64,000 nt of DNA, from assembly GCA_919902665.1 (NCBI GenBank), contig CAKKRK010000154.1, positions 1 through 64,000 on the forward strand, written 5' to 3'. The notes beneath the pieces were generated by a model that worked only from the letters and a program-made list of their open reading frames with translations, had not been told where the DNA came from and made no database searches. This document shows, in pieces, positions 58,175-64,000 of this stretch. The first letter of the stretch is position 1, and every line of letters starts with the position of its first letter. The stretch is from Nitrospiraceae bacterium (GTDB lineage Bacteria > Nitrospirota > Nitrospiria > Nitrospirales > Nitrospiraceae). A program made the translations under genes and the position numbers.

Positions 58175-58420
58175 ATGTGTCTCGCAGTCCCGGGCCGGGT
58201 TCTGAACATCGAAGGTGACCAGCTTCGTATGGCGACGGTATCGTTCGGCGGCGTGACGAAATCCGTTTCATTGGCATTAGTACCGGAAGCAGGGGTGGGT
58301 GACTATGTCATCGTCCATGTCGGGTTTGCGATCAGCAAACTGGATGAGGAAGCCGCACGACGCACGTTGGAGACTTACGCCGACCTGGCTGCCTCGGGAT
58401 CGTCAGATGCGGTGGATTGA
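58175..58420 (+). CDS. hypC: hydrogenase assembly chaperone HypC
   Basis: An 81-residue protein starting MCLAVPGRVLNIEG, the HypC/HybG hallmark with the essential Cys2. It carries the Fe(CN)2CO unit with HypD. It begins one base after the hypF stop. hypD and hypE, normally next, are absent: toxin-antitoxin genes follow instead. Confidence 0.93.
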   Translation: MCLAVPGRVLNIEGDQLRMATVSFGGVTKSVSLALVPEAGVGDYVIVHVGFAISKLDEEAARRTLETYADLAASGSSDAVD

Positions 58421-58521: not shown

Positions 58522-58842
58522 ATGGCGAAGGCCCAATTCGAGTGGGACTCAAAGAAGGATGAAGAAAACCAAGGCAAACATGGAATCTCCTTCACAAAGG
58601 CCCAGTTTGCCTTTGCTGACCCACGCCGCGTGATCGCGGAAGATCTGTCTCATAGCTCAAACGAGCAGCGGCATTACTGTTTTGGCTGGGTCGATGGCGG
58701 AGTCCTGACCGTTCGATTTACGTTTCGCCATGATGTCATTAGGATTTTTGGAGCCGGCTACTGGCGGAAAGGCAGGCGCATCTATGAGCGAGAAAACCAA
58801 GTACACCGACGAACCTCTCGGAGATCTCAGGGTCGTTCCTGA
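58522..58842 (+). CDS. brnT: BrnT-like toxin (type II TA)
   Basis: A 106-residue protein with the BrnT/DUF497 pattern: FEWDSKKDEENQGKHGISF, then ADPRRV, a late strand LTVRFTFRHDVIRIFGAG and ERE near the end. BrnT is a ribonuclease-type toxin. The last 20 residues overlap the next gene and are unusual. The start is the ATG of MAKAQF. Confidence 0.8.
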   Translation: MAKAQFEWDSKKDEENQGKHGISFTKAQFAFADPRRVIAEDLSHSSNEQRHYCFGWVDGGVLTVRFTFRHDVIRIFGAGYWRKGRRIYERENQVHRRTSRRSQGRS

Positions 58843-59068
58843 CTTCCTTCCTCGGCCAGAAGAACTGGTCTTTCGGGACGAAGGTGTCAAGGTCACCATT
58901 GCGTTGAGCAAGAGAAGCGTCGAGTTCTTCAAGGGTGAGGCGCGGAAACATCACACGCAGTACCAGCGCATGATCCGGCGGCTGCTCGATGCCTATGCGG
59001 AGCATCATTCGCGCTCTCGAACTTCACGCTCGACTCGAACACGCCCAAAACTAGCGCGCGCCGGGTAA
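58784..59068 (+). CDS. brnA: BrnA/CopG-type antitoxin
   Basis: The start is ATG 58784 (MSEKTKYTDE), inside the 3' end of brnT. The 94-residue protein has the antitoxin layout: an N-terminal toxin-binding part (LPRPEELVFRDEGVKVTIALSKRSVEFF) and a ribbon-helix-helix-like segment (HHTQYQRMIRRLLDAYAEHH), then a basic tail. It should neutralise BrnT and repress the operon. Overlapping start and stop regions are usual for this pair. Confidence 0.72.
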   Translation: MSEKTKYTDEPLGDLRVVPDFLPRPEELVFRDEGVKVTIALSKRSVEFFKGEARKHHTQYQRMIRRLLDAYAEHHSRSRTSRSTRTRPKLARAG

Positions 59069-59509: not shown

Positions 59510-59524
59510 AAGAACGGCTAATGG

Positions 59525-59590
59525 GAAAGAACGCGGGGCGTCCGAAACGAGCTGATCGCTCAGCTGAAATTGCACTCTGACCCCCTATTG
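59525..59590 (+). repeat. RAYT transposase 3'-end remnant, copy 1
   Basis: The stretch begins ATGGGAAAGAACGCG and ends CACTCTGACCCCCTATT. In one frame it spells GKNAGRPKRADRSAEIAL followed by a stop, the kind of GRPxK tail seen at the end of REP-associated tyrosine transposases. Two more copies lie at 61511 and 62675. Confidence 0.6.
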
Positions 59591-60194: not shown

Positions 60195-60238
60195 CGATAT
60201 ACTGCATTCAGAGGTCCCGCCCGCCCTCATTATTGAAA

Positions 60239-60336
60239 CGCCAACAATTATGGCGTTATGCTCGGAACGCTCAATGGGGTGTGATGTGGGCGGAACACGG
60301 CATAGTCAGCTCCTATGCGGATCGGCCTATACAGGG
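60239..60336. repeat. degenerate attC-like repeat left of the DUF4160 cassette
   Basis: ATGGCGTTATGCTCGGAAC (60250-60268) is identical to 60907-60925 within the attC-like site on the other side of the cassette. The flanks also align (CGCCAAC with GCCTAAC; CCTATGCGGATCGGCCTA with CTTACGCGGATTGGCCTA). The core boxes are decayed here. Confidence 0.6.
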
Positions 60337-60367
60337 CTCGATGCTATAGATAACAGAGCAAAATAGT

Positions 60368-60640
60368 ATGCCAACGATTTCCATGTTTTACGGCATTCTC
60401 ATTCGGATGTTCTTTCGAGACATCGAGAAACATCACATGCCACACATCCATGCCGATTACCAAGGCCAAGTAGCAGTGTACTCAATTCCCGACGGAACGC
60501 TTTTGGCCGGTGGTCTGCCCCCGAATAAGCACAAATTGGTTATCGCATGGATTGAGATTCATCAAGAAGATTTGCTGGCTGACTGGGACTTGGCTGTCAA
60601 CGGTAAGACACCTTTTCCAATCAAAGGACTTGATCAATGA
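60368..60640 (+). CDS. DUF4160 protein
   Basis: A 90-residue protein with the DUF4160 hallmark: FYGILIRMFFRD, then HHMPHIHADYQGQVAVYSI and LVIAWIEIHQEDLLADW. The His-rich PHIHA motif is conserved in the family. DUF4160 genes pair with DUF2442 genes in what looks like a toxin-antitoxin arrangement. The stop overlaps the next start (ATGA). Confidence 0.8.
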   Translation: MPTISMFYGILIRMFFRDIEKHHMPHIHADYQGQVAVYSIPDGTLLAGGLPPNKHKLVIAWIEIHQEDLLADWDLAVNGKTPFPIKGLDQ

Positions 60641-60894
60641 GAATTGTGGAACTCGAGGCACAACCAAACTGCGTACTCTCCATTGTGGCGGATGATGGCC
60701 GGGTTGGCCGGTTTGATGTCAGCCCTTATCTACAGTATGAGGCGTTCGAGGCGCTTCGAGACGAGACCGAATTTAAGAAGGTCGTCAATGGCGGGTATTT
60801 TGTCGAATGGGATTGTGGGGCCGACTTGTCAGCGGACACGATCGAGGCGCAGTGGCAGGTTGTTGGAAAAGTAACCCGGCAAACAACGGCCTAA
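60637..60894 (+). CDS. DUF2442 protein
   Basis: An 85-residue protein, translationally coupled to the DUF4160 gene. It matches DUF2442: VELEAQPNCVLSIVADDGRVGRFDVSPYL and VVNGGYFVEWDCGADLSADTI. Its TAA stop lies within the first core box of the attC-like site, as in integron gene cassettes. Confidence 0.8.
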   Translation: MRIVELEAQPNCVLSIVADDGRVGRFDVSPYLQYEAFEALRDETEFKKVVNGGYFVEWDCGADLSADTIEAQWQVVGKVTRQTTA

Positions 60895-60944
60895 CAAATC
60901 GTTCCAATGGCGTTATGCTCGGAACATTCGATGGCGTGTTAGAC
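60889..60944 (+). other. integron-like attC recombination site
   Basis: The outer boxes are GCCTAAC (RYYYAAC, 60889-60895) and GTTAGAC (GTTRRRY, 60938-60944). Between them AATCGTTCC and GGAAC...CGAT can pair, with extra unpaired bases on one arm, as attC hairpins do. The 56-bp length is in the range of short attC sites. The left box contains the stop codon of the DUF2442 gene. Confidence 0.65.
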
Positions 60945-61005
60945 GGCAGAAAACGGCACATCCGGCTCTTACGCGGATTGGCCTAAACATTGGTAGATCT
61001 CCCTT

Positions 61006-61485
61006 ATGCCGCAAGTGCATTTCGTACGTTCTCGTGAAGAAGCTGGTTCGACAGCCTTTCGAAAGATTTGGTCTGCAGCAGACGATGCCACATCTATCTT
61101 GGCAGCCCACCTGGTGTCTGAAGCAATGCTTTTCCGATTTATTCAAACTAAAACTGCGAATCCGGAAGCACTCGATTTGGCTCAATGGACTTACTCGGAA
61201 ATACTGGTACTCGTACAAAGTTTGCGCAAGAAATCTTCCAAGGAAGAATGGTTGTGGAAAACCCTGCGATCCTTAAATTCCGTCCGCAATCGTCTTGCGC
61301 ATGATATTGAGACACAACATCTTCCGGAACGAATTGAGAAGATGTATAAGACAGCCGATCGCCACATCGACATTCATGCACCAGGCGCCGATCCCAAAGA
61401 TCGGGAGAATAACAAGCTGAAATATTTTCTGCTAATCCTTTGCGGAGTGGTAAATCAGCTCCAGAATTTAGATGCCGAAATCTAG
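61006..61485 (+). CDS. unknown helical protein with HEPN-like motif
   Basis: A 159-residue, mainly helical protein I cannot place. LNSVRNRLAHDIE carries an Rx4H motif, as in HEPN ribonuclease-like domains and DUF4145-type proteins. No partner nucleotidyltransferase gene is adjacent. It starts about 60 bases after the attC-like site, in the position of a cassette gene. Function unknown. Confidence 0.6.
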   Translation: MPQVHFVRSREEAGSTAFRKIWSAADDATSILAAHLVSEAMLFRFIQTKTANPEALDLAQWTYSEILVLVQSLRKKSSKEEWLWKTLRSLNSVRNRLAHDIETQHLPERIEKMYKTADRHIDIHAPGADPKDRENNKLKYFLLILCGVVNQLQNLDAEI

Positions 61486-61510
61486 ATGAGATCTGACATT
61501 GAATCACAAA

Positions 61511-61772
61511 AATGGGGGTCAGAGAACTATTCATCGTCACTTTGGGGACAGCCCGCAGGTGCGAGCAGCGGTATATGCCAATTGGTTGGAGGCCTCGGTG
61601 TCTGATAATGAATGGGATCGCATCCGGAAAGCGACGCAGCAGGGGCGAGTGGTGGGAAGCGACGCCTTCCAAGAAGAGGTTGGCACTCAAGTCGGAAGGC
61701 GATTGATAGGGGAGACGCGGGGGCGTCCGACACGAGCTGACCGCCTCTCTCAGGTTGCACTCTGAGCCCTAT
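61511..61772 (+). pseudogene. RAYT transposase fragment between inverted repeats, copy 2
   Basis: The region begins AATGGGGGTCAGAG and ends CTCTGAGCCCTAT, imperfect inverted ends. Its plus-strand frame reads WLEASVSDNEWDRIRKATQQ, GRVVGSDAFQEEVG and GRPTRADRLSQVAL, the C-terminal part of a REP-associated tyrosine transposase. The catalytic HUH and Tyr region is missing. Confidence 0.7.
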
Positions 61773-62674: not shown

Positions 62675-62768
62675 AAATAGGGGTCAGAGAAGAATTTGAA
62701 TGGGAAAGAACGCGGGATGTCCCAAACGGGCTGATCGGCCATCTGAAGTAGTGCTCAGCCCCCTATTT
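62675..62768 (+). mobile_element. short RAYT-derived MITE, copy 3
   Basis: About 94 bp. The left end AAATAGGGGTCAGAG and the right end GCTCAGCCCCCTATTT are inverted repeats. The interior is the RAYT 3' tail (GKNAGCPKRADRPSEV in one frame). It looks like a minimal deletion derivative of the element at 61511. Confidence 0.6.
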
Positions 62769-62784: not shown

Positions 62785-62837
62785 GGTTTGAGCGGGAAAT
62801 GAACGCCGCTCGCGGCTGAGCGGCAGGGTGTTAGGTT
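62785..62837 (+). other. possible attC-like right half before the last gene
   Basis: GCCGCTCGCGGCTGAGCGGC folds on itself and is followed by GTGTTAGGTTC, which contains a GTTRRRY box (GTTAGGT). A clear left box was not found; the short element at 62675 abuts that side. Weaker than the site at 60889. Confidence 0.35.
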
Positions 62838-62844
62838 CACTTTG

Positions 62845-64000
62845 GTGAAGGTCCACGAGAAGCTGATTGCGAGCATCCGCGCTCACAGCCCCTACCTCTC
62901 CTGGGCGGCAGAGGGACGGACTCCGGACGAAGTCAAGGCTGAGACCTTGGCGATCCTACGACCACACTTTCAGAATCCATCGGTGCTAACGGATGTCCCC
63001 ATATCGATTCTCGCCCACGAGGCTGTAAGCATCAGCAACATTCAGGTCGATGCCTGGGCTTCATCAATGCTCGCAGGCGTTCTGGCCGAATACCGTGAAG
63101 CTCTAGCTCAGGACCAGCGCGAATCGGTTGCAGCGCTAGAAGCCTGGGACGAGCCGATTGCGCGAGCGATGTCAGAGTTCATGTCGCTCTATCTCATGGA
63201 GGTTGATAAGACGGGCCTTGAGCTCGATGAACTTCGCCTCGAGGTTCTGCGCAATGTCGGCGGCCTTCTTGAAGCTTGCGTGCAGCCACAGCTGAAGGCC
63301 CTCCTTCATCAGATTCGTATCCGACGGCGTCGGAAGACTGATGTTGAGGACATTCTGGCTCTGAAGTTCGGAGCAGCGGTTGAGGAGCTCCATCAGACGC
63401 TTCGGGCGCCGGGCATCGTTGAGCCTCCGCCGTGGGACATCAAGCTGCATCACTGGCGGAATGTGGCACAGCATCACTCGGCAACCATCCAGAACGGCCG
63501 CATCGTATGTAACTACCGAATCGGTAAGGTTACGCACCAGATCGAGCTCACTCGCGACGAACTCGTAGCTGTTGCGCGCAAGATGCAAGAGGTGCTGGGT
63601 ATCGTGCGCACCGCGAGGTCCATCTTCATCGCTGACAACGTGGTCGCACTCCGAGGTCGCCGTGTGGTTGAACCCAGACCAGAGATCTTGTTCTTCCAAT
63701 TTGCAGTGGGCATCGCGACCCAAGGTTTCAATATCGTTGACGTCGATGTTTCTGGTGATGTTGCGCATCTCCATGTCCAGGACGCGACGGACCAGGATGC
63801 ACGACTCCGCGGCGTGCATGCATCGCAGTTTCTTGTGGGAACCTGGGCGCACTTCCACAGGCCACTTGTTCGCGTCACGTACATTGACAAGAGCGGTCGT
63901 AAGTGTCTTGAGGCAGCCGCATCTGGAGCTGACTGTGAGGACGTGTCTGAAGAGCGAGTTACGTTTGAGACGCTAGCGGATCGAGTAATGTTTCGTGTCG
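62845..64000 (+). CDS. unknown protein, HEPN-like motif, C-terminus beyond window
   Basis: Missing from the ORF track because it has no stop in the window. From GTG 62845 (TTG 62842 is an alternative) the frame stays open for 385 codons. The first 190 residues are helical (LIASIRAHSPYLSWAAEG, VDKTGLELDELRLEVLRNVGG). Then comes HHWRNVAQHHS with an Rx4H motif and a following strand pair (GRIVCNYRIGKVTHQIEL), which is how some HEPN domains look. Function unknown. Confidence 0.65.
   Translation, partial: MKVHEKLIASIRAHSPYLSWAAEGRTPDEVKAETLAILRPHFQNPSVLTDVPISILAHEAVSISNIQVDAWASSMLAGVLAEYREALAQDQRESVAALEAWDEPIARAMSEFMSLYLMEVDKTGLELDELRLEVLRNVGGLLEACVQPQLKALLHQIRIRRRRKTDVEDILALKFGAAVEELHQTLRAPGIVEPPPWDIKLHHWRNVAQHHSATIQNGRIVCNYRIGKVTHQIELTRDELVAVARKMQEVLGIVRTARSIFIADNVVALRGRRVVEPRPEILFFQFAVGIATQGFNIVDVDVSGDVAHLHVQDATDQDARLRGVHASQFLVGTWAHFHRPLVRVTYIDKSGRKCLEAAASGADCEDVSEERVTFETLADRVMFRV

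Follow-up and report, generated by a model that had tools for sequence, protein, structure and literature searches.

A probable cassette-array remnant in a Nitrospira genome with an attC arm joined to a predicted attI module

The DUF4160–DUF2442 gene pair of this Nitrospira genome is followed by 56 bp (60889–60944) that resemble an integron attC site, which raises the question of whether they are one and what kind of array they belong to. Coordinates refer to the window, the whole 64,000-nucleotide stretch of DNA analyzed here. The original prediction described an attC with canonical boxes, internal pairing arms and a stop codon in the left box. The boxes are indeed present, GCCTAAC at 60889–60895 and GTTAGAC at 60938–60944; they follow the R'' and R' consensus and pair at 6 of 7 positions, and the TAA of the DUF2442 gene (60892–60894) lies within R''. 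An intact attC ending the DUF4160–DUF2442 cassette would account for these features, yet the remaining evidence makes it scarcely credible. The boxes alone are no evidence, because the pattern RYYYAAC-N20-50-GTTRRRY is rarer in the 3.56-Mb genome (51 per strand) than its reversed control (91). The supposed internal arms form 5 of 9 pairs in the attC register, a value attained by 68% of shuffles, and lack the in-register L''/L' pairing with extrahelical bases; among 14 collected attC sites, 13 have 6–9 in-register pairs and one has 4. Folding of the bottom strand, one of the checks proposed at the outset, yields unremarkable z values of -1.6 to -0.9, close to those of shuffles, compared with -5.2 to -5.5 for two true attC sites. 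Scored with a covariance model built from 12 canonical attC sites of related arrays, the 56-bp site reaches 10.4 bits (E = 3), against up to 68 bits for sites of related arrays. The best match to this model at the site, 60889–60918, scores 18.1 bits, with E values of 0.03 for the window and 1.7 genome-wide; it draws on a GTTATGC inside the repeat described below as module B and was rejected as a true left arm extended by chance. Rfam has no match within the window. Homologous cassettes do not conserve the 56 bp as a unit: only the left 18 bp, 60889–60906, are common to them, and the right half is B sequence.

Comparison of homologues therefore separates the site into two parts. The DUF4160–DUF2442 pair has homologues in 37 of 197 related genomes, and those in a second collection are Nitrospira by name. 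The closest homologues (93–97% identity) track the window up to 60906 and diverge beyond; GCCTAACAAATCGCTCCAGC... is common to many of them, and in two (L128 and L135) the left arm continues into a complete attC-like end. Because homologues match to 60906 and two run on to an attC-like end, 60889–60906 is a true attC arm, with the stop-codon-bearing left box as its R'' box, and it is joined to B at 60906/60907. The toxin-antitoxin-like pair is likewise present as described. Its nearest NCBIfam models are DhiT and DhiA, and both genes fall below the cut-offs for membership in this type II toxin-antitoxin family (83.3 versus 100 bits and 16.6 versus 200 bits).

The sequence to the right of the joint belongs to module B, a dispersed, ORF-less repeat that spans ~165 bp and has inverted motifs at its ends, CTTAYGCCGATCCGCATAAG / CTTATGCGGATCGGCC. 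Aligned copies end in ...CTTATGCGGATCGGCCTAAACATWGTTAG and differ from one another beyond that point. A 166-base query located B in 103 of 197 related genomes, where a single contig often has several copies spaced 1–3 kb apart, and all copies lie on one strand in 20 of 20 loci with at least two copies. In the genome under study it also occurs beyond the window, on contigs C17, C1 and C38. TTGAA with a 17-nt spacer is the best promoter match in 82 of 108 full copies. Two partial copies lie in the window (Table 1), and the B profile returned nothing below E = 1 on the reversed window. The decayed repeat noticed across the gene pair is thus real (a partial copy at 60250–60333, 78% identity), but it is a piece of an attI-like module and not of an attC. 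Copy 2 has an L-like box, GCCTAAA, at 60981–60987, and its true core is the degenerate GGTAGAT at 60992–60998. Because both cores are degenerate and B's left end is missing from both copies, their history was read by comparison. Both are probably dead. We also considered B as a very long attC and rejected this, as the B copies read have no R'' box at the left end. At two loci, L036 (C17) and L030 (C8), B-type repeats adjoin a sequence ending GAGTTTTCACACAGCC that resembles an insertion-sequence end.

Table 1. Features of the accessory region, in window coordinates.
Feature	Position	Strand	Evidence and remarks
hypC, bordering the accessory region on the left	58175..58420	+	TIGR00074 89.8 bits, cut-off 48
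B copy 1, decayed attI-like module	60213..60342	+	nhmmer 53.6 bits, E 7e-16, 60213-60334; degenerate core GCTCGAT 60336-60342
Promoter-like TTGAAA-18-TATGCT in B copy 1, facing the DUF4160 gene	60233..60262	+	promoter-motif match
DUF4160 gene (DhiT toxin-like), first cassette gene	60368..60640	+	PF13711 E 7e-24; NF048015 83.3 bits, cut-off 100
DUF2442 gene (DhiA antitoxin-like), stop codon in attC R'' box	60637..60894	+	PF10387 E 5e-12; NF048016 E 0.008, below cut-off
True attC left arm (R''-L''), GCCTAACAAATCGTTCCA, without right arm	60889..60906	+	homologue comparison
B copy 2, fused to the attC arm; right part of a decayed attI-like module	60906..60998	+	nhmmer 54.9 bits, E 3e-16, 60906-60995 against model positions 71-161
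GTTAGAC, right box of the original prediction	60938..60944	+	internal to B (consensus GTTATACGGACAG), no attC R' box; alignment to B consensus
159-aa ORF to the right of B copy 2, probable next cassette	61006..61485	+	
Right half of another attC, CCGCTCGCGGCTGAGCGGCAGGGT-GTTAGGT	62806..62836	+	R' box 62830-62836
Cassette with ~400-aa ORF, from R' GTTAGGT	62830..64000	+	runs past the window

To what kind of site does B correspond? By tblastn, ~19 loci match the IntI C-terminus, the majority of them intI remnants, and in most of these loci B follows the intI stop codon at a distance of ~22 bp. A full-length intI stands directly beside B at one locus only (L089), where the order is integrase (TIGR02249, 464 bits, cut-off 265), B, a cassette with a gene named rhodanese-like from its sequence that starts at G|TTATGC, and an attC whose R'' box, GCATAAC, is the complement of that start. 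The intI of the B-carrying integron faces its attI. B ends in the attI1-like arrangement GCCTAAA-CATT-GTTRRRY, and at the core the aligned copies become diverse past GTTAG. Cassettes are joined there at G|TTRRRY, and the bases beyond the joint come from the attC of the cassette itself. In a test on a single set of sites, whose cores were located by regular expression, the four variable bases that follow GTT in B correspond to the complement of the R'' box in the next attC at 118 of 168 positions (98 in shuffles) and match it exactly in 16 of the 42 copies that have an attC downstream (4.6 expected), neither value being reached in any of 20,000 shuffles, although the predominance of GTTAGGC among the core bases after B limits the power of the test. 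As far as sequence can tell, this match is the joint left by integron chemistry when a cassette enters an attI. Because B lies behind intI, carries a promoter-like motif, has an attI1-like L/R end and matches the R'' of the next cassette at the junction, we identify it by these sequence features as an attI; the integrase would cut it, and its predicted promoter may be active. Among the 197 relatives, 20 have a TIGR02249 match over the cut-off, and other Nitrospirales intI genes have attI regions of different sequence.

The inverted terminal motifs and the many dispersed, ORF-less copies first led us to consider B a miniature transposable element of the ordinary kind, flanked by terminal inverted repeats, which would insert near genes and have no part in integrons. 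Its constant position behind intI, the single orientation of all copies in an array, the cassette-junction signature after its GTT and the attI1-like L/R end (attI1 boxes according to PMC12901181) speak against such an element, and we dropped this improbable idea on account of the location behind intI and the cassette junctions.

The reading of B as an attI raises the question of how it came to be so widely dispersed. Because most B copies have no detectable intI, the data suggest that they are attI-plus-promoter modules, the promoter being predicted, which may have spread. Some ~60 copies are preceded not by an intI end but by module A, a second ORF-less block that is B's usual upstream partner. 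In 13 of the 36 A+B copies with a placeable A start, that start is a GTTAATG-type box, in most cases preceded by a recognizable attC. Comparison of the upstream attC with the box downstream of B, as two halves of one attC around A+B, is restricted to 13 clear cases, which are few. We put forward only tentatively that, in Nitrospirales, mobile ORF-less A+B units carry an attI and a predicted promoter into the attC sites of cassette arrays. The copies without intI could instead have stayed in place as platforms from which intI was lost. In favor of such loss, many B copies are preceded by intI remnants that form a graded series, and B remnants lie right behind hypC in two other genomes; the ~60 copies with A where the intI end would be, and the A starts at GTTAATG-type boxes mostly after an attC, as in an inserted cassette, speak against it. 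Within the attI interpretation of B, we give the loss of intI a substantial chance, somewhat short of an even one.

Beyond the chimeric site, the genome retains genuine attC sites: two of them follow a B copy (C1:77060, 44.8 bits; C150:431, 25.9 bits), and one precedes module A (C8:609, 38.8 bits). The right attC half at 62806–62836 has a near-identical counterpart within an attC of L098, and the cassette that starts from its R' box ends at contig position 64027 with the R'' box ACCTAAC, the exact complement of GTTAGGT. Upstream, the variable bases of ATCTAGA at the stop of the 159-aa ORF (61480–61486) agree with those of the core GGTAGAT. In the genome no IntI match exceeds the cut-off (best match 85 bits, cut-off 265), and since the assembly consists of 240 contigs, an intI could be missing from it. 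A search for intI remnants in the same genome likewise found none; the recombinases it returned are Xer-like or unrelated. At a contig end (G000:C110:14818-16271), two tyrosine recombinase genes lie side by side and may belong to a recombinase trio, and another genome of the same family has three tandem IntI C-terminus fragments ~1.83 kb apart (G092:C48:9638-13476). Of the findings on which the original prediction was to stand or fall, support from an attC model and an intI over the cut-off are both absent, but further real attC sites are present in the genome.

Because true attC sites stand beside B or A elsewhere in the genome, yet no intI is found, the window is best read as containing a decayed cassette array without integrase. 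The hyp operon is interrupted by an accessory region between hypC (58420) and hypD, which starts at contig position 64171, past the window end. In 25 Nitrospira loci checked, no hypC was detected within 0.7 kb of hypD, and B remnants occur in the hypC–hypD gap or near hypD in other Nitrospira too, in 2 genomes directly after hypC. Directly 3' of hypC, a BrnT-like toxin gene (PF04365, over cut-off) overlaps a BrnA-like gene (PF14384, below cut-off) at 58522–59068. A 65-bp repeat, AATGGGAAAGAACGCGGGGCGTCC..., occurs in three copies between cassette genes (59520–59584, 61705–61769 and 62699–62763), with GGGGTCAGAG motifs nearby.

Taken together, these observations are very probably explained as follows. 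The interval from hypC to hypD would be a decayed integron cassette array without an integrase, and the feature at 60889–60998 a chimera in which the R''–L'' attC arm of the DUF4160–DUF2442 cassette was joined to the right ~90 bp of B by deletion or unusual recombination. B itself would be the attI of a Nitrospirales integron lineage whose intI is transcribed towards its attI, its ~165 bp comprising inverted motifs at the two ends, a promoter-like motif facing the cassettes and an L/R core at which the integrase would join cassettes (G|TTRRRY). The expectation of a chromosomal integron or an integrase-less cluster was thus right in kind, as the ruin of an integrase-less array, and wrong in the details of the site.

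Comparison with known systems places B close to attI1 of class 1 integrons, which is also a cassette entry site beside intI, with an L box (CCCTAAA in attI1, GCCTAAA in B), an R box GTTRRRY and repeated motifs upstream of L/R (PMC12901181). However, attI1 measures 65 bp and B ~165 bp; B lies downstream of an intI transcribed towards it, has the promoter-like motif inside, and exists in dozens of copies with no intI detected. In the 'reverse' chromosomal integrons of Treponema, intI also points towards attI, in the same direction as the cassettes (PMC3607928); these belong to different bacteria, and that study takes its analysis of attI no further than an R-like segment; the part of it considered here mentions no dispersed copies. 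Clusters of attC sites lacking integrase (CALIN), of which PMC9024848 credits Nitrospira with only two, both in Candidatus Nitrospira inopinata, resemble the window in having attC remnants and cassettes without intI. A CALIN has at least two complete attC sites and no IntI nearby or in the genome; the latter holds for this draft of 240 contigs, whereas the window contains attC halves only (60889–60906 and 62806–62836), and its repeated landmark is attI-like. The fusion of attC arm and B recalls unusual gene cassettes of the Delta-attI type, in which part of an attI stands in place of the cassette attC and which can recombine (PMC12901181). Such cassettes carry resistance genes and attI pieces and belong to mobile integrons, while the window has ~90 bp of what would be a chromosomal attI after an attC stub. 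Finally, the gene-less promoter cassettes of Vibrio superintegrons and an oral metagenome (PMC11014356, PMC6557892) are, like A+B, ORF-less array units with a promoter for downstream cassettes, but A+B ends in an attI-like site instead of an attC, and its promoter is a predicted one.

The attI sites outside class 1 integrons are poorly described (PMC9024848), and we found no description of a B-type attI family in the open-licence literature. B would provide a long attI family with a predicted promoter that can be recognized by sequence in about half of the sampled genomes of Nitrospirales and near relatives, and its clear cassette-junction signature offers a handle for tracing integron activity in nitrifying bacteria. 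If A+B units are mobile, a single integrase could have many sites in a genome, and not just one, at which cassettes are inserted and expressed. B thereby raises the idea that attI sites and promoters may themselves multiply.
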